DNA of 38,463 nt from Bacillus sp. JCM 19058 (GTDB lineage: Bacteria > Bacillota > Bacilli > Bacillales_H > Bacillaceae_D): positions 1-38,463 of the forward strand of contig BAXO01000056.1 of the NCBI GenBank assembly GCA_001310555.1, in the 5' to 3' direction. A program made the translations under genes and the position numbers. Positions 20,530-38,287 of the stretch are shown here, in pieces. The first letter of the stretch is position 1; each line of letters opens with the position of its first letter. The notes beneath the pieces are model-generated. The model saw only the letters and a program-made list of their open reading frames with translations, had not been told where the DNA came from and did not search any database.

Positions 20530-21302
20530 TCAAAATTGTTGTAAAAAAAATTCAATATTTTCGTTTACTTCCTGTGGATTGTCTAAATTGGTAGCATGGT
20601 GGGCGTCTTTTATCATTTTCAATTCAGCTTTTGGGATTTGGGTTTTCATGTAGGATGCTGTCGCAAAGTCATCGTGTCGTGGTCGCCACACAATAAAAGA
20701 GTTGGAAAGGCGACCTTATGCAAACTATCGCGGCTTTCCATTCTGGTAATGGCATCCCAAACACGAATCCAGTTATTGTGTGGGATCATCTGTACCGCTT
20801 CTTCAATGTACGTTTGGTTGTCCGGGTTAAATTTCGACATCATTTTGGCAGACAGTCTGGCCGAATGCTTCATCGATAAAAGCCGGGACGACCAGCGATT
20901 AAAGGGAACAAACAGTTTCTCATACCAATTAAATGTGTTCGTAAAAGGCGTTCCAATTAAAATTAATCCTGCGACTCGTTTCGGGTATTTGAACGCCGTC
21001 TGCAATGAAATGTGGCCACCCATGGATAATCCGCATAATACTGCTGACTTTATTTCCAAATGATCTAGCAACCCGTTCAAATCTTTGCTGAAATCGTTTG
21101 AATTAACTTTCCCTGCAGGAAGGGTTGAGTACCCATGCCCCCGCACATCCCAGACGACAGTCTGGTAAAACTGAGAGAAATAGTCCACTTGCTTCTCCCA
21201 TTGCTTATGATTAAAGGAAGCGCCGTGCGTGAACACAATAGGCTGCCCGGTTCCCCGAACTTCATAATACAGCTTCACGTTATTCACTTCATATATTGAC
21301 AT
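20530..21302 (-). pseudogene. alpha/beta hydrolase, one frameshift near the 3' end
   Basis: ATG 21302 (GAGGAGAGTGAGCAA upstream) starts MSIYEVNNVKLYYEVRGTGQ. Hydrolase landmarks are THGASFNHKQW, WDVRGHGYS, nucleophile GLSMGG, acid in LLCGDHDTM and His in KDAHHATNLDNP. One base, probably a G, is missing near 20665; restoring it gives HDTMDFATASYMKTQIPK and a stop at TGA 20532-20530. Length is about 258 residues. It is the promoter-proximal gene of the pair, divergent from the TetR gene, with two dyads between them. The two hydrolases are clearly different sequences, not a recent duplication. Confidence 0.85.
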
Positions 21303-21358
21303 TTGCTCACTCTCCTCAGGTCCAAGAATGATGAACACATTCTTAAGATAATTTAATT

Positions 21359-21471
21359 ATAAATATGAAATATAAAATAAATAAATTTCATATTTATATC
21401 TATATATTACGCAGAAAGGTAATCAAAGTCAAGATATTATGAAATTTTTCGTTTGAAATAGTTCATAATAT
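21359..21471. promoter_or_regulatory. two operator-like dyads between hydrolase and TetR genes
   Basis: Dyad 1: ATAAATATGAAAT (21359-21371) / ATTTCATATTTAT (21385-21397), perfect 13 bp. Dyad 2: ATATTATGAA (21434-21443) / TTCATAATAT (21462-21471), perfect 10 bp. Both contain TATGAA half-sites, one near each start. This is the layout expected for a TetR repressor that controls itself and the divergent hydrolases. Confidence 0.65.
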
Positions 21472-21504
21472 TTAGTATGCTGAACTCGAGGTGGAAAACA
21501 ATGA

Positions 21505-22146
21505 ATGGATTTGAAAGACGAAAAGAACGTAAAAAAAGAAAATATTCGCCTTGCTGCTTTACAGTTATTCATGGAGCACGGCTTTCGTAAGGTAAATATT
21601 TGGGAGATCGCTAAGAAGGCAGGCGTATCCCAAGTGACGATCTACAATTACTTCGGAAGCAAAGACGATTTAGCAAGGTATGTTCTCGAGCTCTATATGG
21701 AAGAACAGCTTAAAGAATTTACTCGATTTTATAATAGCTCCCAGCCTTTCTTGGAAAAGCTCGAATGGATTTTTTTTCAAAAAAAAGTGAAGGCATTTGA
21801 CACGATGAGTGTTGAGTTTTTGGACTCGTTTATATCGAGTGATCCGGAGATCGCTGAGGCGATAAAACAGTTTGAAGCGAAGTCAGTACCTTTGTTTGTG
21901 GGATTTATCGAGCAAGGGAAGGAGCAAGGATACTTCAATAATGATCTATCGATGGAAACGATTATGTTTTACATGAAACTGTTTAGCAGCCAAGCGATGC
22001 AACAGCTCGAGAAGATGCCGGAGGGCGAGCAGAAACGACGCGTATACAAGGAGCTGGTGACTGTGTTTTTTAAAGGAGTAATGGGAGAGCGCGTCGATGA
22101 ATTGCAAGAATTGCTGGATAACAACAGTAAAGCCGAAAACACATAA
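21505..22146 (+). CDS. TetR/AcrR-family transcriptional regulator
   Basis: A 213-residue regulator with an N-terminal helix-turn-helix (IRLAALQLFMEHGF, then IWEIAKKAGVSQVTIYNYF, residues about 14-50) and a divergent all-helical ligand domain. ATG 21505 keeps the frame open, but ATG 21501 (after GAGGTGG) followed by six rather than seven A at 21531-21537 would give MNGFERRKERKKENIRLAA, the usual opening of Bacillus members; I suspect that is the true start. An 8-T and an 8-A run in the middle (about 21770-21788) are in frame as given but should be verified. It is divergent from the two hydrolases, which it probably represses. The inducer is unknown. Confidence 0.85.
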   Translation: MDLKDEKNVKKENIRLAALQLFMEHGFRKVNIWEIAKKAGVSQVTIYNYFGSKDDLARYVLELYMEEQLKEFTRFYNSSQPFLEKLEWIFFQKKVKAFDTMSVEFLDSFISSDPEIAEAIKQFEAKSVPLFVGFIEQGKEQGYFNNDLSMETIMFYMKLFSSQAMQQLEKMPEGEQKRRVYKELVTVFFKGVMGERVDELQELLDNNSKAENT

Positions 22147-22173
22147 GTACATGCTTGAACATCCATAGTTTTT

Positions 22174-22196
22174 AAGGGGCGGGAAGCCCCTTTTTT
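22174..22196. terminator. terminator of the TetR gene
   Basis: AAGGGGC (22174-22180) and GCCCCTT (22186-22192) around a GGGAA loop, followed by T to 22196. It is nearly symmetric and probably also ends the lipoprotein gene from the other side. Confidence 0.8.
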
Positions 22197-22199
22197 ATG

Positions 22200-22683
22200 A
22201 TGGTGGTCATGGTTTCCGTCGTGCTTACTGTTCTTTGGTCGAAATTCATTCATAAGGGCTTCTACTTTCTCCGCAGGCACATCTCCAACAAGGAATCACT
22301 TTTTTTGGCATGACATGCATGCCGTGAGCAGTAACGTGGGTTTGGACGTAGTATATTCCTTATTCTTCAACTGTTCTGTTCACGGCATAGATTCCTTCTC
22401 CCTCATGCTCAGCTTCTTCCCAGTCACGCTCTTCTCGATCGTGCGCTTTCCAAATTTCAAATTCGACTTCATCAGCGTCTGTCACACGCCCCTCTCCTTG
22501 CGTTAATAGGAGCTTAAGTTCTGCTTCATCATTCACTGCAAGTTCATCGGGAATTTGAAGATATACTTCTAGTACACTGTACGATTGTTCCTCCTGAACT
22601 GCCTCTCCTCCCGTTGATGGGCAAGCGGATAACCATAATAAAGAAAACAAGATCATTGCATGATGCATTTTAACACTCATCAT
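22200..22683 (-). pseudogene. FixH/YtkA-like lipoprotein, disrupted
   Basis: ATG 22683 (AAGGAGAAAATA upstream) starts a protein with a lipoprotein signal peptide (MILFSLLWLSAC; the lipobox LSAC gives the acylated Cys). The mature part, YSVLEVYLQIPDELAVNDEA, then EVEFEIWKAHDRE and EGIYAVNRTVEE, follows the YtkA/FixH beta-sandwich pattern. An in-frame TAA stops it there, but the same frame continues as GIYYVQTHVTAHGMHVMPKK, the family's last strands. After one more base shift it continues FLVGDVPAEKVEALMNEF, ending in a His-rich tail (NHDHHH). The exact end near 22200 is uncertain. Its gene starts 16 bases after the PepSY gene stop, so they form an operon. Confidence 0.65.
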
Positions 22684-22699
22684 TATTTTCTCCTTTTTC

Positions 22700-24063
22700 T
22701 TAATCGAGCCAGGCTTTAATCGAGCGAAATTTAGGTAAAATCAGGCGGTCAAGGATAAAAACTAGGATGAGTGACAGACCGACAAGCGGCATAAGTAGCC
22801 CATGACGAGCATCATGCCAAACACAGTCCGAGTAACTACCTTATCCTTAGGCTTAGCGGGAGCTCTCATTTTTCCTTGTGGTTTACGTTTTCTCCACATC
22901 ATAAACGAACTGATAATGAGACCGATCAGCCTATGCAAACGATTAGTCCAATTATTTGATTGGCTAACCCGAACAAACGGCCTTCATGTAGGGCAATTCC
23001 ACCCTCGACAAGCTTGGCACCAAAGCTAAAATCGCTGAAGCGTACATCGCTCAAGATCGCTCCACTATACTGGTCGACATGTAAAGTGGCGAGCTCGCTC
23101 GGAGTGTGTAAGTTTGAAATTGTATAAACTCCCGTTTCATCAGCTGGGAGTGATAGTGTATATGGTTTGTTAACTCCTTCATTTGAAGCGATATGATTCA
23201 CCTCATCAAGGGTTAGCGGAACGTGGCCGCTAGAAGCCGAATCAGGGACAGGTAATTTCTCAGTGGCCCACGGGATATTCTGTGCTATATCTTTCGTATA
23301 TGAAATCGATTCAGGCTTCTCTCCGAAACTATAAGCGTATTGAGGTGCAGTAGTTAGCTCTGAATTTGTTTGCCTAAGACTCCAGACCAAGGCAGGCCAG
23401 TTGCAATTAAGACCAATATAAATAGAGATAGCCAAAACGCAGGAACGACATGCAAATCACGCCAAAACACTCTGCCTTTCCTTTTCAATCGAGGCAAAAT
23501 GGTTCCAAAAATGGCAGATTTATTTCGTGGCCACCAAATATACAGTCCCGTGATGAGCAAAATGATAGCCCAGCAGGCAGCCAACTCCACTAAACGATTG
23601 GCGAAAGCTCCTCCAATAATGAGCTCACTATGGAGCTTTTTAAAAAGCTCAGTCAATTTCTGTTCGTTGTTCAGCGACCCTTTTACTTTTCCATTGTATG
23701 GATTAACATAGGCAGAAAAGGCTTGTCCTTCTTTCATATAGCTGATTTCCGTCGTCCGAGACGGATCGTCCATCAACTTGATCGCTAATACTGAGCTTTC
23801 CGGTTCGATATTTCGTACAGCTTCCACTTGGTGCTCTAGCGGTAAAGTAGTTTCCCCGAGTTCCTTTACATAATAAAGCTCCTGATAGAGATAAGACTCA
23901 ATCTGCGGTTTGAACAAATAAACGGAGCCGCTAAAGGCGAGAATAATTAAAAAAAGGAGCAAAAAAACACTCCAGCGTAAAAATGCCAACGCCAAACGGA
24001 TTGATAGAGAGAGGCGCTTCTTCTTTTTTTCACTGATTTTAAGGGATGTTTTCTCTGTCTCAT
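22700..24063 (-). pseudogene. PepSY-associated TM protein, frameshifted
   Basis: The gene begins near ATG 24063 (AAGGA upstream). The true N-terminal frame reads SLYQSVWRWHFYAGVFF, the hallmark first helix of PepSY-TM proteins, and joins LIILAFSGSVYLFKPQIESY after removing one base from each of two 7-base runs (23949-23955 and 23961-23967). The middle holds a PepSY-like domain (EQAFSAYVNPYNGKV region), HSELIIGG, a second helix (IILLITGLYIWWPR), RDLHVVPAFW, and a third helix before a second extracellular domain ending LHEGRLFGLANQIIG. A break near 23400 joins VLGKQ to LRQTNSELT, and one near 22790 gives the last helix (PLVGLSLILVFILDRL) and TAA at 22702-22700. About 450 residues. Possibly involved in metal or ferric reductase-like membrane functions; unproven. 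Confidence 0.8.
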
Positions 24064-24657
24064 TTTCAATTCCTTCATCCTTTTATTTTGTTTACTGAAA
24101 TTTGTCGACGTATGGCGAGAGTAATATATGACCGTCGACTAACCTTATTAAATAAAAGAGTTGTGAAATATAGGTGAACTGGATATGTCAATTCAGAGAA
24201 AGTTACGTTCAAGCGCGAAGTATTAACGGCAAGGGAGTTGAACGAAGCTCAGAAAAAGAAAGAGCAGGAGGTATGCATTAGCAAATGACCTAAAGGCTAT
24301 CAAACTATGGTCGGAGAATGAGGGAAGCTCTTAGTGGGTGGAACTTCGATTCTTCAAGGTGAAGGATTAGAACTCATACAAGGTTGTTGAAAAAGGGTTG
24401 GCCGATCATTTTGAAAGTAAGACAAAGTCAATAAGGGAAAAAGGGTGACATACATGTTATTGTTTTTCTAAAAAGGAAACGTTATTTTAAATGAAAGGTA
24501 TGATTGAGGCTTTTCTTCGATTTTTAAAATGCTTAGTTTAAACGTTTAAAGTTGCTTAACGGGTATGGCTTAGGAATACCTATATCATGATAAAAAACAT
24601 TAGCACTTGCATGAAAGTAATATAATTAAAAGATATCAATATAAAAGGGGTGTATCG
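24064..24657. other. 600-base intergenic region upstream of divergent PepSY and VOC genes
   Basis: No real gene seen. A 14-bp palindrome TTTAAACGTTTAAA lies at 24537-24550, about 110 bases before the VOC gene. GTCGAC occurs twice (about 24104 and 24153) as an inverted pair close to the PepSY start. Short open frames here lack ribosome binding sites. Confidence 0.35.
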
Positions 24658-24996
24658 ATGAAACTTAATCATCTAAATCTGACAGTGAACGATGTTTCAG
24701 CTTCGAGAGAGTTTTTGGAAAAATACTTTGGTATGAAGTGTGTAGGAAGCCGAGGAAATGGCTTTGCTGCAATGTTTGACGCGGATGGATTCGTGTTAAC
24801 TTTAATGAAAGGAAACAATGTCCAGTACCCTAAGACGTTCCATATCGGTTTCCCTCAAGAGAATGAAGAACAAGTTGACAGAATCAACCAGCGACTGAAA
24901 AATGACGGATTCGATGTCACACCACCAGAACACGCTCATGGATATACCTTCTATGTAGAAGCCCCAGGGGGATTCACAGTTGAGGTACTATGTTAA
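24658..24996 (+). CDS. VOC-family (glyoxalase/dioxygenase-like) protein
   Basis: ATG 24658 is preceded by AAAGGGGTGTATCG; an upstream in-frame ATG at 24607 has no binding site. The 112-residue product is one complete VOC module: MKLNHLNLTVND at the N-terminus (His5), YFGMKCVGSRGNGFAAMF, TFHIGF (His62), and GGFTVEVLC at the end (Glu109). These three residues are the standard metal ligands of glyoxalase I, bleomycin/fosfomycin resistance proteins and extradiol dioxygenases. With a full ligand set it is probably an active enzyme; the substrate is not known. Intact, and followed by a hairpin. Confidence 0.85.
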   Translation: MKLNHLNLTVNDVSASREFLEKYFGMKCVGSRGNGFAAMFDADGFVLTLMKGNNVQYPKTFHIGFPQENEEQVDRINQRLKNDGFDVTPPEHAHGYTFYVEAPGGFTVEVLC

Positions 24997-26861: not shown

Positions 26862-27441
26862 CTATAATGAATAATACCACATTAACTGTGCTACCTCTGG
26901 TTTATCCGGATAGGCATAAAGGTTCACTTCTCCTAATGCGGCCCCCTGTTTAGCGTAAAAGTTGCATGCATGGACATTATTGTTTTGACACTCGATTTTG
27001 AGCAGGTGACACTTTTGGGATTTTGCCCATTCTAAGCATTTACGGAAAATGCTAGAACCGATGCCCTTTCCGCGATAGCTATAATCAATTCTAAGATCCC
27101 ATAGTGCAGCAATATCTTTCCTGCCTTCAAGAATATTAACCGCTGGAGTATCATAAGCGATAACAGCTCCACCGACCCGGCTACCTTGATGAAACGCTGA
27201 TACGATCACCCATTTTTCAGTATTCCATCGTTTTTTTCCACCTTTCTGGCCCCATTCCTTTTTCAGCATCAAAGTCAACGCAATAAGAATGTTCTACAGG
27301 CGCTTCTTCAAAAATAATTCCTCCCAGTCCATTTTTTACGCGTTTAATATTCAAGTGTGAATGAACCTCGAATGAAATTGGAATACTTCCATATTCTTTT
27401 AGTACACGAGTACTTTCAAATTTATATTGAATACTTTCCAT
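26862..27441 (-). pseudogene. GNAT N-acetyltransferase, single frameshift
   Basis: ATG 27441 (AAAAGGAGCAACAAAT upstream) starts MESIQYKFESTRVLKEYGSI. Reducing seven T to six (27231-27237) joins GPERWKKRWNTEKWVIVSAF to the GNAT core: LWDLRIDYSYRGKGIGSSIF (motif A with RGKGIG) and IECQNNNVHACNFYAKQGA (motif B). The full length is about 193 residues. The arrangement of an N-terminal strand region followed by WDLxIxxxxRGKGIG resembles streptothricin- and other antibiotic-type acetyltransferases found in Bacillus, but the substrate is inferred only from family resemblance. Confidence 0.8.
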
Positions 27442-27528
27442 ATTTGTTGCTCCTTTTATCATAAGTATAATTTTTACGAGTGTGCATCTCTAGGCTTAGA
27501 GGTTTCCCAAAAGGCTCTATGAGCTATC

Positions 27529-27861
27529 GTGTATTCGATTCACTTTTGTCCTTCCTTTATAGTCCTTTTTTTAAGTGTACGTGGTGAGCTTTCAACACGC
27601 AACTGCTCTTCATCTATTGACCCCATGCTTAACAGGGTAAGTACTTCTCTCTTTCTACTTCGGGTGAATTATGCAATCATTGAAGTAGCTCGAGCGTCAT
27701 CGTTTCGCCTAAAGCGTAAAGGATTTGATTCAAAAGTTCCTTTGTTTTTCTGTAATCGTAAAATCTTCCCGATATTACAAGATCTTTATGAAATCGCTGG
27801 TAGGATGACCGGCTCCTATTTGCTTTTCAATTATTGGCATAAAAAGAATAAAAATGTATAA
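27529..27861 (+). other. possible gene remnant of unknown family
   Basis: An open frame of 110 codons without ribosome binding site. Its second half (RVNYAIIEVARASSFRLKRK, then LFFCNRKIFPILQDLYEIAG) has protein-like composition and ends TGSYLLFNYWHKKNKNV. It may be the 3' end of a decayed gene. I do not recognise it; a chance frame is equally possible. The rest of 27442-27995 has only the repeat at 27876. Confidence 0.3.
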
Positions 27862-27875
27862 TGTAGAATAAGAGT

Positions 27876-27931: not shown

Positions 27932-27995
27932 TGCCCCTCCTAACGAAGCTGTCGCATGAGCTAAAGGAAACGATAATGGTTATGAGGGGGAATAC

Positions 27996-28538
27996 ATGTC
28001 TATGAAATTATTTACGGTAACAATCGTGTCTTGCGAAACTGGTAGTGAGTATGAGGTTATTAGACAAGCCCTGGAGTCTTGTAGTATTCGTGTCATTAAT
28101 GAAGCAGTCGGTAGACCGCAAGATTTTATCGATTTTTTGTCAGGTGAAGGGTATTTTTCGTCTGATTTTGTCATCTTTTCCTTTCACGGAATGGACGGAA
28201 AATTCTGCATGCCGGAATTAGGAGAGCGCGTATACTTTGATAATGAACCGAGAACGGATTTCGGAATTGAGGAAATTCAAACCTATTGCCAAATAAAAAC
28301 ACCGGTCATGATCAATATGGGATGCGGCTTAGGTTATCAAGCATTGGCTGATGCTTTCCTCGAAAAGCATACGAACGTCTATATTGGAGCGGAAGATGTG
28401 ATCGACGGGCTTAGCAGTAACTTCTTTGTCATTCGATTCTTTTATGAACATTGCCAAAATAAACGCTCGCTGCGGGAGGCATTTCAGTTAGCAAGAAACA
28501 CAGATCCCGAAACGATGCTTTTTCGGTGGTTCGATTAA
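27996..28538 (+). CDS. stand-alone caspase-like (clan CD) cysteine peptidase candidate
   Basis: An intact 180-residue protein (ATG 27996 after GAGGGGGAATAC, or ATG 28002). The sequence reads as an alternating alpha/beta fold: strand TVTIVSCETG, helix YEVIRQALESC, strand DFVIFSFHGMDG with His64, strand TPVMINMGCGLG with Cys110, then NVYIGAEDVIDGLSSNFFVI, RFFYEHCQ and SLREAFQLAR. His-Gly at the end of one core strand and Cys at the end of the next, followed by an 'I-G-A-x-x-x-x-x-G' strand and a helix with SLREAFxxAR, is the caspase/CHAT/gingipain arrangement. No signal peptide or sensor domain is seen. I believe relatives in Bacillus carry the misleading name delta-aminolevulinic acid dehydratase; that enzyme's active-site lysines and zinc cysteines are absent here. 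The substrate is unknown. Confidence 0.6.
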   Translation: MSMKLFTVTIVSCETGSEYEVIRQALESCSIRVINEAVGRPQDFIDFLSGEGYFSSDFVIFSFHGMDGKFCMPELGERVYFDNEPRTDFGIEEIQTYCQIKTPVMINMGCGLGYQALADAFLEKHTNVYIGAEDVIDGLSSNFFVIRFFYEHCQNKRSLREAFQLARNTDPETMLFRWFD

Positions 28539-28566: not shown

Positions 28567-28592
28567 AAGGTGGCCAATGGTGGCCGCCTTTT
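28567..28592 (+). terminator. terminator of the caspase-like gene
   Basis: AAGGTGGCC (28567-28575) pairs with GGCCGCCTT (28582-28590), one G-T pair, loop of six, followed by TT. Located 29 bases after the stop. Confidence 0.7.
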
Positions 28593-28673
28593 CTTACGAT
28601 AGGAATGAGGAAGGAACAGTAGGAAAGGTATGGTATAATAGTGATAATAATAAATGGGAATGGTGGAATACGG

Positions 28674-29191
28674 ATGGATATCACACTTGATAAACTACTA
28701 ATGACAGATGCTGAAGCATTATTAACGTTTGAGCGAGAAAACAGAGCTTATTTTGAAAAAATGGTACCTACTCGGGGAGATGATTACTACAATATTGCAA
28801 GTTTTATAGAGAGGCATAAGGCTTTATTAGATGAACAAGCGAAGGAAGAGTCGTATTTCTATTTAATAAAGGACAAAAAAAGGATCTATCCTTGGGAGAA
28901 TTAATTTGATTGACATTGAGAAATCAAAAGGAATAGGCGATCTAGGGTATAGAGTTGGGCAAGTACATACTGGAAAAGGAATTGCGAACCATGCATTGAA
29001 AATATTATTGGAAAAAAATCGTTAATGAAGGTCGAATCACACAAATTAATGCGAAAACGACAACAAATAACGTAGCCTCACAAAAAATTTTAGAGAAAAA
29101 CGGCTTCGAACGCCGCAGCATTGCCAATGATGAAGCGTTCGAAATCGACGGGCAAGAATTTAAATTTGTCTATTATGTTTGGACCAACTAG
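28674..29191 (+). pseudogene. GNAT N-acetyltransferase (RimJ/RimL type), two frameshifts
   Basis: ATG 28674 (GGTGGAATACG upstream) starts MDITLDKLLMTDAEALLTFE. Reducing seven A to six at 28875-28881 gives IKDKKGSILGRINLIDIEK, and at 29012-29018 gives LLEKIVNEGRITQINAKTT; the frame then runs to TAG 29189-29191. The acetyl-CoA loop is GQVHTGKGIANHAL (GKGIA) and the C-terminal core is NNVASQKILEKNGFE, the RimJ/RimL pattern of ribosomal-protein alanine acetyltransferases and related resistance enzymes. About 171 residues. An upstream in-frame start at 28641 has no binding site. Likely intact in reality. Confidence 0.85.
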
Positions 29192-29443: not shown

Positions 29444-31290
29444 ATGGGGTATTCAAACAATGAAACAACATTCAAATTAAAAAATATCGGAGCATATAAG
29501 AATGTTGTTCGTTTGCTGTTCATTTTGTGGAAGGAACATCCTTTCTTCGCTACCTTGCTCTGTTTGACTACTACGATATTAGGAATTATCCCGGCCCTGG
29601 AATTATGGGTAACGGGAAGGCTAGTGGATCAGTTTTCTAGCTTATTTTCCAATAGCGATTTAAGCTTAACACCGGTTGTTATAAATGGTTTGATACTTAT
29701 TGCGCTAATGATTGGGCATAATTGGATTCGGATATTTTCTGAAACGATTCAGGATTACCTTCGTGATAAAGTAGCGGGAGAGCTGCAGCAAGAAATTTTA
29801 GAAAAATCTTATAATATCGAGCTTTCTTTTTTTCGAACATGAGGAATCATACAATCAGTTACAAAGAGCAAATGAAGGCTTAAAAACTAGACTAGTGAAC
29901 ATTTATATGGACGCTATTTCTTTGATCCAGCTAATCATCACTGCGGTTGCGTATACGATCACCCTTATGGCGGCTCATTGGTTGCTTGGGCCGCTCATAT
30001 TTATCGCTATTATTCCTTCCCTGATCCTGAAAATTCTACGAGCCAGACAATTGTATATATTTGACTATGACACGCTTACACCGACACGGCGTCGGCTTGC
30101 CTATTTTCGGGACTTACAGTCGAAGGATGAATTTGCAAAAGAAACGCGAATTTTTAATTTGGGCAAGCACTTTCTGTCCCAATGGCGACTCACACAAAAC
30201 AAGTGGAAAAATGAAGTTTTAAAGGATGAGGGGCGTGAAATCAAAGCATCGGCCATTAACGATCTCGTGTTAAATGTCGTCTTTGCTCTTTCTTCCGTCT
30301 TTATTGTCTATTTAATTATCGGCGACCAAATGAGCATAGGCTCATTCGTCATTATGACCCAGGCCATCATCAGACTTCAAGAGGGAGTAGAAGCGGTTCT
30401 TAGGATTTTAAGAAATTTATATCAAGACGGATTATTCGCGTATAACCTTTTTCACTTTCTTGACCAACCGATATCACGAGTTTCGACTGGATCTACAAGT
30501 TTTCCTAAGCCGATTAAGAAAGGAATATCATTTGAACATGTATGGTTTAAATATCCGGGAAGCGAGACTTGGACATTAAAAGACATCTCATTTCATGTTC
30601 AAGTCGGTGAAACAATTTCGCTTGTAGGTCAAAACGGTTCAGGGAAAACGACGTTAATTAAATTATTATTAGGGATGTTCAAGCCACAGAAAGGTCGGAT
30701 CTTAATCGATGGAATAGCGATTGAACAGCTTGCTGAAGATGAGTTAAGGCAAAATATGACCGCTATTTTTCAGGATTTCGTTCAATACGATTTTTCGCTG
30801 CGTGAAAATATTGAGCTTGGAAGCTTATACGAAAAAAAATGAGCATGTGCGCTTTAAAGAAGCAGCGAGGCTGAGCGGTGTCGATCAGATTGCTGCTCAG
30901 CTTGAGCATGGATTTGAAACTATTCTCAGTAAAGAATACGGGGGGACAGAGCTTTCCGGTGGTCAATGGCAAAAGGTGGCCATAGCTAGAGCGATGGTGA
31001 GAAATGCTCAAATTGTCATTTTAGATGAACCAACGGCAGCACTCGATCCGCTTGCGGAATTATCGATCTTCGAAGAATTTCGAAGGCTCTCCAAGGAGCA
31101 AACAGCTTTCCTTATCTCCCATCGAATCGGAACAGCGCGGAATGCTGATCGAATCCTTGTTTTACAAAGCGGAGAATTAATAGAAAGCGGTAATCACGAG
31201 CAATTAATCAAGCATAATGGCGAATACGCAACATTATTTCGCCTACAGGCTCAATGGTACGCTGACGAAGAAGGAGGTGAGACAAAGTGA
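29444..31290 (+). pseudogene. ABC exporter half-transporter 1 (TMD-NBD), two frameshifts
   Basis: ATG 29444 after GGAGGGGGTCACAGC. The fused membrane and ATPase subunit has about 614 residues. The membrane domain (from LFILWKEHPFFATLL) has a transporter pattern PALELWVTGRLVDQF that is repeated in the partner gene. Frame breaks: seven T to six at 29827-29833 gives ELSFFEHEESYNQLQRANEG; eight A to seven at 30832-30839 gives YEKNEHVRFKEAARLSG. The ATPase domain has Walker A GQNGSGKTT (about 30627), Q-loop AIFQDF, signature ELSGGQWQK (about 30950), Walker B VILDEPTAALD (about 31014) and H-loop ISHR. Exporter-type; substrate unknown. Its stop overlaps the next start (GTGA), so both are translationally coupled. 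Confidence 0.85.
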
Positions 31291-33164
31291 ACACTAACAA
31301 AGGAAAGAAGTATTGGAAGGAATTCAAAAATATGCTAGATGGGATGGGTAGGCTGGGGCAGTTTGCATTGAAAGTCGGACCATGGATAACGGTAGGCATC
31401 ATTTCAGTCACCATTTTAATTGGAACGATTCCGTCACTGGAACTATGGCTGCTCGGGAAGCTAGTGGATGAATTAACACAGACCGTTGAAAGTAGTAACG
31501 CTCATTCCCTTTGGCAGTTGACTCCGATACTAATGCTCATAGCGTTTCTTTCGAGTATTAGACTGACCGGTACTTTCCTTAATCATCTCATGAGGTGGAG
31601 CAAGACATGGTTTGAGGAAGCGATGGTTTACCATATTCAGTCGGATGTATTAACGAAGGCAAATCGAATTCCTCTGAGCCATTTTGAAAGCTCGCTATTT
31701 CACGATAAGCTTTCACGAGCAAACTCAGGATTAGGCTTAACTTTTTCAAATTTACTGTTTCAATTGTTCAAAATTATTGAGTCGTACGTTATGATCATCG
31801 GCTTAACGATATTGACGTTTCAGGTTCACTGGCTCATCCCCCTTCTTATTATCGGGACAGGAGCGCCGATTTTATTGCTACAAAATAAGTACAATGTCGA
31901 TCGCTATCGTCTATTCTCAAAAAAATACAAAAAAAGCAAAGGTTAATGAATTATTTCGTACATGTACTCTCCGGCCGTGCTGCAGCTAAAGAAGTTCGCT
32001 TATTTGGCCTTGGCCCTACCGTGACGGCTAGATGGAAAAGCTTATACACGGAAGTAAGAAATGCAGTATTAAAGCAAAATATTAGACAGCGGGTCAAATT
32101 GGGGTTGGTCGAATGCGTGTCTCCACTGACATTTGCTATTTGTCTCGGTCTATTGCTGTCATCTCTTATGTCAGGGACCGCTAGTTTAGGTGATGTTGTC
32201 ATGGCGTTTTATGCCATCATCCGAATGCGCGAGCAGTGGGAATGGTGTATTCGCTGGATGGGATGGGTGCATGAAGATTATTTGCATTTTATTCGTGATT
32301 TAATCGGTTTTTTTGGATTTGCCGGAACACGCTCGAGCCTTGCAGGAAGGGCAGGATACTAATGAGGGAAATAAAACACGAGACGAACGAAATAAGTATG
32401 ACTTAATCAATCAACCTCATAGCCTGACCGTAAACAACGTTTTCTTTCGTTATCCTTATACAGAATCGCTCGTTTTAAACGATGTCACGTTTAGCCTTAA
32501 GCCAGGGGAAAAGGTAGCACTACTAGGGGAAAACGGTTCGGGGAAATCCACGCTCGTTAAATTACTACTTGGCTTGTATGAGCCTGACAATGGATCGATT
32601 ACATTTAGCGGTCATGATATAAAAATGTTGAATTCTGATTCGCTCTGGAGACAAGTGTCAGGAGTTTTTCAAGACTTTTCTAAATATCACCTTACTTTAA
32701 AGGAAAACATTGGCTTCGGTAATATAAGTAAACTAAATGAGCAATTAGCTATTGAAAAAGCGGCGCGTTTAGGAGGCGCGGCTACAATTGCTGAATCACA
32801 TAAGTTGCGATATGAAAGGATGCTTGGGGCGACGTTTGGCGGCTCCGACCTTTCCGGAGGCCAATGGCAAAAAGTAGCGACGGCTCGAGGTTCATGAGAG
32901 AGCCGCAACTTTTAGTTTTGGATGAACCGACAGCTTCCCTAGATCCACAGGCAGAAGTTGAGGTATACAAAAGGTTTCAGGAAATGGCTGGCTCCAGAAC
33001 GGCTCTGCTTATCTCCCATCGTATTGGCTTTGCGCGCTTGGCTGATCGAATCATTGTATTAAAAAAATGGAAGACTAGTTGAAATGGGAACGCATCATGA
33101 ATTGCTCTCTGAAGGTGGAGAATATGCAAAGCTATTGGAAATACAAGCGAAATGGTATCAATAA
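31287..33164 (+). pseudogene. ABC exporter half-transporter 2 (TMD-NBD), five frameshifts
   Basis: GTG 31287 overlaps the TGA of the previous gene by four bases; GAAGGAGG precedes it. The product of about 625 residues is a fused TMD-NBD half-transporter and, with gene 1, should form a heterodimer of the BmrCD/LmrCD kind. Repairs: 7-A runs at 31919-31925 and 31929-31935, joining FSKNTKKQRLMNYFVHVLSG; seven T at 32308-32314, giving LIGFLDLPEHARALQEG; one base lost near 32890, giving ARGFMREPQLLVLDEP; and seven A at 33061-33067, giving VLKNGRLVEMGTHHELL, to a stop at 33162-33164. ATPase motifs: GENGSGKST, DLSGGQWQK, LVLDEPTASLD. Both subunits keep the catalytic Glu, so no degenerate site is obvious. 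Confidence 0.85.
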
Positions 33165-37797: not shown

Positions 37798-37874
37798 GCG
37801 CCCGTAGCTCAATTGGATAGAGCGTTTGACTACGGATCAAGAGGTTAGGGGTTCGACTCCTCTCGGGCGCGCCA
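37798..37874 (+). tRNA. tRNA-Arg (ACG)
   Basis: Acceptor GCGCCCG (37798-37804) pairs with CGGGCGC (37864-37870); D arm GCTC...GAGC; anticodon loop CTACGGA with anticodon ACG; T arm GAGG-TTCGACT-CCTC; discriminator G and encoded CCA (37872-37874). The A34 is normally deaminated to inosine by TadA so that it reads CGU, CGC and CGA. Confidence 0.96.
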
Positions 37875-38000
37875 TGCTTTAATAAAATTGGATAAAGCTT
37901 TTGACGAAAAAAATCCAACCAAGATAAATTATCTTAATACTTTATTGTTGAATTTCAGCAATGAGTAAAAAGTAGCCTCGTCAGCTAATTTTATCAACAA

Positions 38001-38077
38001 CGGGAAGTAGCTCAGCTTGGCAGAGCACTTGGTTTGGGACCAAGGGGTCGCAGGTTCAAATCCTGTCTTCCCGACCA
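38001..38077 (+). tRNA. tRNA-Pro (TGG)
   Basis: Acceptor CGGGAAG (38001-38007) / CTTCCCG (38067-38073); anticodon stem CTTGG/CCAAG with loop TTTGGGA, anticodon TGG; T loop TTCAAAT; discriminator A and encoded CCA (38075-38077). Confidence 0.96.
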
Positions 38078-38092
38078 TTTAATTTTAAATAA

Positions 38093-38166
38093 GCGGGTGT
38101 AGTTTAGTGGTAAAACCTCAGCCTTCCAAGCTGATGTCGTGGGTTCGATTCCCATCACCCGCTCCA
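38093..38166 (+). tRNA. tRNA-Gly (TCC)
   Basis: Acceptor GCGGGTG (38093-38099) / CACCCGC (38156-38162); anticodon stem TCAGC/GCTGA with loop CTTCCAA, anticodon TCC; T loop TTCGATT; discriminator T and encoded CCA (38164-38166). Confidence 0.96.
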
Positions 38167-38210
38167 AAACAATATATTTCATCGGAAGTGCTTTTTTTGT
38201 GCCCATTAAC

Positions 38211-38287
<77 letters not shown>

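Follow-up and report, generated by a model that had tools for sequence, protein, structure and literature searches.

A small stand-alone protein with a predicted caspase fold and a conserved His-Cys pair in Bacillus sp. JCM 19058 and related Bacilli

A predicted bare caspase-like domain with an invariant His-Cys pair

We analysed a 38,463-nucleotide stretch of the Bacillus sp. JCM 19058 genome (contig BAXO01000056.1, positions 1 to 38,463; hereafter the window) and found that the gene at 27996..28538 on the + strand encodes, from ATG to stop, a stand-alone protein of 180 amino acids that homologues, AlphaFold2 models and PDB matches indicate to be caspase-like (clan CD, CHAT-like). From its predicted fold and conserved His-Cys pair, this protein is probably a small self-contained protease. 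The predicted catalytic histidine, His64 (codon CAC, 28185..28187, + strand), lies directly past a strand at residues 58-62, and the predicted nucleophile, Cys110 (codon TGC, 28323..28325, + strand), comes after a strand at residues 102-107. A preliminary description, made from the sequence alone, had picked out FVIFSFHG with His64, VMINMGCG with Cys110, and SLREAFQLAR in the 180-residue product; all three are present as described, the last near the C-terminus.

Two AlphaFold2 models and their structural matches in the PDB give the caspase-haemoglobinase fold, a six-stranded sheet between helices as in CHAT-type catalytic domains, and so support the clan CD fold that had been proposed. The clan CD rows of the Foldseek search had query TM-scores of 0.49-0.63 and no other fold matched better; the nearest structural relatives were SAVED-CHAT (8tl0) and Craspase TPR-CHAT/Csx29. 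A few non-caspase chains (4nfy, 3f7a, 3eq2 and 7tai) were also listed near E 0.001, with lower query TM-scores of 0.33-0.39. The motifs stand in the order of clan CD, His64-Gly65 first and Cys110 second, in every one of the 50 aligned sequences. Judging from topology and superposition, His64 and Cys110 would lie within catalytic distance of each other.

The alignment of 50 sequences (A6) includes the window protein and spans identities to it from 66% down to 20%. Ten columns are invariant: Arg23, Glu27, Gly39, Pro41, His64, Gly65, Cys110, Gly113, Phe121 and Ala162. The window protein has three histidines and six cysteines, among which only His64 and Cys110 are invariant, and the loss of conservation that had been named in advance as evidence against the proposal was not seen. 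The chance that two pre-named residues of 180 would both fall among ten invariant columns is about 0.003 (10*9/(180*179)), and since the pair also comprises the only invariant His and Cys, its conservation goes beyond chance. Both residues are invariant too in alignments of 29, 27 and 51 rows, which overlap A6. Left out of A6 were P0018, P0019, P0024, P0031, P0042, P0043, P0044, the plasmid copy, redundant loci, and the damaged L025 and L030 copies. P0018, apparently frame-damaged, is gapped at Cys110, while both residues are retained in P0024, P0031 and P0042 (27-row alignment), in the plasmid copy (29- and 51-row alignments) and in P0019 (another alignment). An acidic residue occupies position 14 in 27 of 50 sequences and position 134 in 41 of 50. 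Loops at such positions can line the S1 pocket in clan CD, and these residues would hint at a preference for Arg or Lys, a hint too weak to claim as specificity.

Relation to known clan CD families

We aligned the 50 family members with reference domains from Bacillota genomes, using 22 of 24 Peptidase_C14 matches and 6 of 7 CHAT matches (L090, L091 and L098 were dropped as short or weak). In each of three MAFFT modes, His64 lined up with the catalytic His, and Cys110 with the catalytic Cys, in 21 of 22 C14 and 6 of 6 CHAT domains. When 20 relatives were scanned individually, ten matched CHAT (PF12770) at E up to 0.1; only L027 passed the gathering score, with 24.9 against 24 bits over positions 108-263 of the 289-position model, and the other nine scored 13.1-21.8, some with a Toprim match below threshold as well. 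None of 29 members matched Peptidase_C14 (PF00656), even with E values of up to 1 allowed, and PDB sequence searches returned no significant relative of known structure, a SAVED-CHAT chain appearing only at E 0.88 with the A3 query. The case for clan CD is carried by structure and alignment columns; we place the window protein in this clan, nearest to CHAT, and do not file it as a Pfam CHAT member.

The CHAT family is named for its association with TPR repeats, and characterised CHAT proteases have their sensor fused. Unlike CHAT proteins (PF12770; SAVED-CHAT, Craspase TPR-CHAT/Csx29), the window protein is a bare 180-amino-acid domain without a TPR or SAVED part; it has no second domain, and no partner family recurs in 34 loci, where single neighbours were not scanned for TPR. 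Metacaspases usually carry an Asp two positions before the catalytic Cys, whereas this family, in contrast to Peptidase_C14 caspases and metacaspases/orthocaspases, has no acidic residue at that position in 50 of 50 sequences. Gingipain is large and secreted and separase is large and eukaryotic, both with extra domains; the window protein differs from gingipain C25 (RgpB) and separase C50 in being small and single-domain.

A patchily distributed single-domain family

The reading frame is real: a single-sequence search found nine other proteins of 176-184 amino acids that are 58-66% identical to the window protein. Profile searching yielded 19 rows altogether, and a wider profile yielded 35, with only the best 7994 candidates scored. 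One relative is deposited as a hypothetical protein (Bacillus sp. J14TS2). Two distant members, P0023 (Aneurinibacillus) and P0026 (Paenibacillus elgii), are already named CHAT domain-containing in UniRef, and another distant member comes from an Anaerolineales metagenome assembly. Among titles and abstract starts, from a literature coverage that leaves out most subscription papers, we recognised no paper on this family.

G001, the genome of the Paenibacillus bovis locus L001, set the class from which 398 genomes were sampled; it had been chosen for having the gene and was itself counted. Matches occurred in 32 of these 398 genomes, a patchy distribution, always as one copy per genome within open frames of at most 233 amino acids (the copy in G328 was split into two listed pieces). 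A phylum-wide draw gave six matches in 398: three also in the class sample, two short pieces, and one different protein of 969 amino acids. The latter (L037, genome G004) matched the family profile with an E of 1.1e-4; it combines a linker rich in Thr and Pro with a stretch resembling caspases, THGD ... NGSC, and may be a secreted clan CD peptidase.

Pfam and NCBIfam scans of the window protein, together with the short frames of all genome matches, agree with the earlier statement that no other domain is fused to it. The same description had held this to set the protein apart from most bacterial caspase homologues, which is not supported: a stand-alone architecture is not unusual, as a published survey counted 398 among 671 prokaryotic metacaspases with no domain besides the peptidase (PMC3501461). 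What is unusual in the window protein is that it is so small and that no Pfam or NCBIfam model recognises it.

Purifying selection acts on the gene in relatives. NG86 dN/dS was below 1 in 28 of 28 pairs among eight closely related loci (0.055-0.274, median 0.115), which have about 40% identity to the window protein; L013 was dropped from the nine close loci. The sole pair that includes the window gene, with L001, had a dN of 0.244 and a dS that was not usable.

No recurrent partner among neighbouring genes

For the relatives we took up to 19 kb around each gene, giving 34 loci with the window included, two of them with damaged copies. Outside groups of obviously syntenic genomes, no gene family was recurrent next to the caspase-like gene in these loci. 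By our own grouping, the 34 loci comprise about twenty unrelated contexts. One group of nine loci has a stable context that we read as housekeeping, including a glutamine synthetase-like gene. The families that different fetched stretches had in common were widespread kinds, named by reading the sequences: ABC ATPases, sensor kinases, response regulators, sigma factors, TetR and transposon genes, along with a polysaccharide-deacetylase-like family in three loci. In Paenibacillus bovis, a 361-amino-acid gene that ends about 40 bases upstream was first taken as a TPR-like partner; it was ruled out, as it matched none of the Pfam families at E up to 0.001 and had no counterpart in the other loci when genes were clustered.

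We searched PADLOC at 1e-10 with neighbour proteins of at least 110 amino acids encoded within five genes, taking one per cluster. Of 153 such proteins 150 were used; one L066 gene, one L068 gene and a window open reading frame that is probably spurious were left out. This gave 54 families, and among the 25 listed, 23 were found in a single protein, mad2 in three and Csa3 in two; AbiEi/AbiEii, DrmD, RT and others were each found in one of the 150 proteins. A Cas12f-type match came from one L048 protein and is probably a TnpB-like transposon gene. The suggested survey of homologue neighbourhoods for defence genes yielded no recurring defence neighbour among the 25 families listed. In the window itself, Pfam scans of nine nearby open reading frames support the earlier observation that no defence system is adjacent.

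A single plasmid record carries a copy, the mobilizable Priestia filamentosa plasmid pBEH1, and a DNA-level search of plasmids with the window gene matched none. Around this copy are GNAT, alpha/beta hydrolase and glyoxalase genes, with a BglII-type restriction gene about 8 kb away. A related alpha/beta hydrolase occurs in both the plasmid locus (L003, 13392-16038) and the window (20646-24996 and 26862-27278). GNAT and glyoxalase-type genes also lie within about 8 kb in both, in a different order and without clustering together, which is possibly a coincidence. A reading of the gene as phage or prophage cargo was dropped: phage records gave no match for three family members, and viral contigs gave no relative with A1, P0020 and P0023 as queries, both in searches of limited sensitivity.

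Proposed mechanism and alternative readings

We consider it likely that the protein is an active cytosolic single-domain clan CD cysteine peptidase with a dedicated substrate, switched in trans and acting in an accessory pathway. The compact cytosolic protein would be a bare clan CD (caspase/CHAT-type) catalytic domain in which His64, just past the third core strand, activates Cys110, past the fourth, and Cys110 would then attack a peptide bond of a specific protein substrate. A separate p10-like subunit would not be needed because the 180 residues hold all six core strands. As the protein lacks sensor and repeat domains and its gene lacks a conserved neighbour, control would presumably be exerted in trans, either through dimerisation or through a partner (protein or small molecule) encoded elsewhere. 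In Craspase, about 7 A separate H585 and C627 of the CHAT dyad, and the gap narrows to about 3 A once non-self target RNA binds (PMC9729208), so that a CHAT-like domain on its own might likewise depend on some activation step. The pathway served would be an accessory one of Bacillales-type bacteria, lineage-specific and concerned with stress or regulation. A more specific version is possible, if rather doubtful: an autonomous minimal caspase-fold protease lineage, made up of bare CHAT-type domains of 180-200 amino acids and found mainly in Bacilli, that lost or never had a sensor, controlled by oligomerisation or by a small metabolite bound through Arg23/Glu27/Gly39-x-Pro41, and serving as a non-defence proteolytic switch.

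Several results count against an active clan CD peptidase. The window protein has no Pfam or NCBIfam match at E up to 10, and Toprim matches below threshold (best E 0.0032) were seen in 8 of 27 members, several of them distant. The recommended profile-profile comparison did put C14 (68%) and CHAT (45%) at the top with 51 members, but these hhalign probabilities are modest, fall to 30% and 40% with the nearer 27 members, and are approached by one of 33 controls, ctl23, at 40% and 18% (the rest were at most 1.3%); being weak and having such a control, hhalign was not relied on. Damaged copies were found in 2 of the 32 carrier genomes: the copy in G322 (L025/L059) has no in-frame match to the first 30 residues and lies close to transposase-like genes and a type II restriction-modification pair, and the copy in G328 (L030/L064) has an in-frame stop. 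These copies suggest that the gene is dispensable.

Instead of a protease, the caspase fold could be a module for binding or scaffolding, or its His/Cys pair could be used for another chemistry. No substrate, partner or activity is on record for the family, Arg23, Glu27, Gly39 and Pro41 are each as invariant as the dyad (50 of 50), and pseudo-orthocaspases with a substituted dyad are described (PMC6426788). We nevertheless regard a non-protease as unlikely, as pseudo-enzymes usually lose the dyad, which here is invariant down to about 20% identity; among the bacterial metacaspases of the survey cited above, 84% had an intact dyad and 16% lacked one (PMC3501461). The name carried by two relatives, P0019 and P0020, both from Bacillus sp. 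JJ722, would make the protein a delta-aminolevulinic acid dehydratase (ALAD), an enzyme of haem synthesis, or a fragment of one, and we give this next to no chance. The ALAD fold is a TIM barrel and the predicted fold is that of clan CD, no PF00490 match was found among 29 members at E up to 1, and each of the 32 genomes carrying the caspase-like gene has an ALAD at another place. The separate ALAD and the missing PF00490 match settle the suspected misannotation, which holds for these two deposited relatives.

A solo anti-phage or abortive-infection protease that causes cell death on infection would be a special case of the peptidase reading, so that the likelihoods of the two overlap. SAVED-CHAT and Craspase TPR-CHAT, which are closest to it in structure, have roles in CRISPR-linked defence (PMC9729208 and PMC11417357), and the patchy distribution and the restriction gene on the mobilizable plasmid would fit such a role. 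We see only a slim chance of it. PADLOC had no match to the family itself (best E 0.025, in 1 of 29 members), some single defence genes occur among the neighbours but none of the listed defence families recurs, and the traced type II restriction pair (L059) is close to the N-terminally damaged copy. The phage records without a match and the housekeeping context of the nine-locus group also speak against a defence role.

Flanking signals and neighbouring genes in the window

Upstream of the caspase-like gene, we observed a candidate sigma-A-type promoter at 27834..27862 (+), TTGGCA-17-TATAAT, with 11 of 12 consensus bases. The candidate is weak because the region has five promoter-like sites, about as many as shuffled sequence (mean 3.6, sd 1.9). 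A candidate ribosome binding site, GAGGGGG, was noted by eye at 27984..27990 (+). Past the stop codon, a candidate hairpin at 28567..28590 (+), with a nine-pair stem including one G-T pair, is a possible terminator seen by eye and not listed by the terminator scan. The opposite strand has several stops in the frame shown.

In the window, the caspase-like gene has as neighbours ABC exporters, a glyoxalase, a ferredoxin, a GNAT gene encoded on the opposite strand and a broken gene that reads as GNAT-like. Several of the surrounding genes are broken across frames at 26862-27462 (-), 28641-29191 (+), 29444-32897 (+) and 22926-23995 (-), and comprise the GNAT gene, the GNAT-like gene, the ABC exporters and a PepSY-like membrane gene (the GNAT-like and PepSY-like genes were named by reading their sequences). 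This suggests that the assembly is prone to indels or that the genes are decaying; amid them, the caspase-like gene is intact. A tRNA cluster, Arg-Pro-Gly-Ile, lies at the window end (37798-38287, +).

Implications

Bacterial caspase-like proteases of solved mechanism are tied to sensors and defence systems. The family described here is a single-domain one of Bacilli, unrecognised by current Pfam and NCBIfam models in most members tested, and the misleading enzyme name on its deposited relatives can now be corrected. It offers a very small and tractable protein, whose dyad is strictly conserved and beside which no partner gene is seen, and it opens the question of what a predicted bare caspase fold would do in a bacterium and how it would be kept off.
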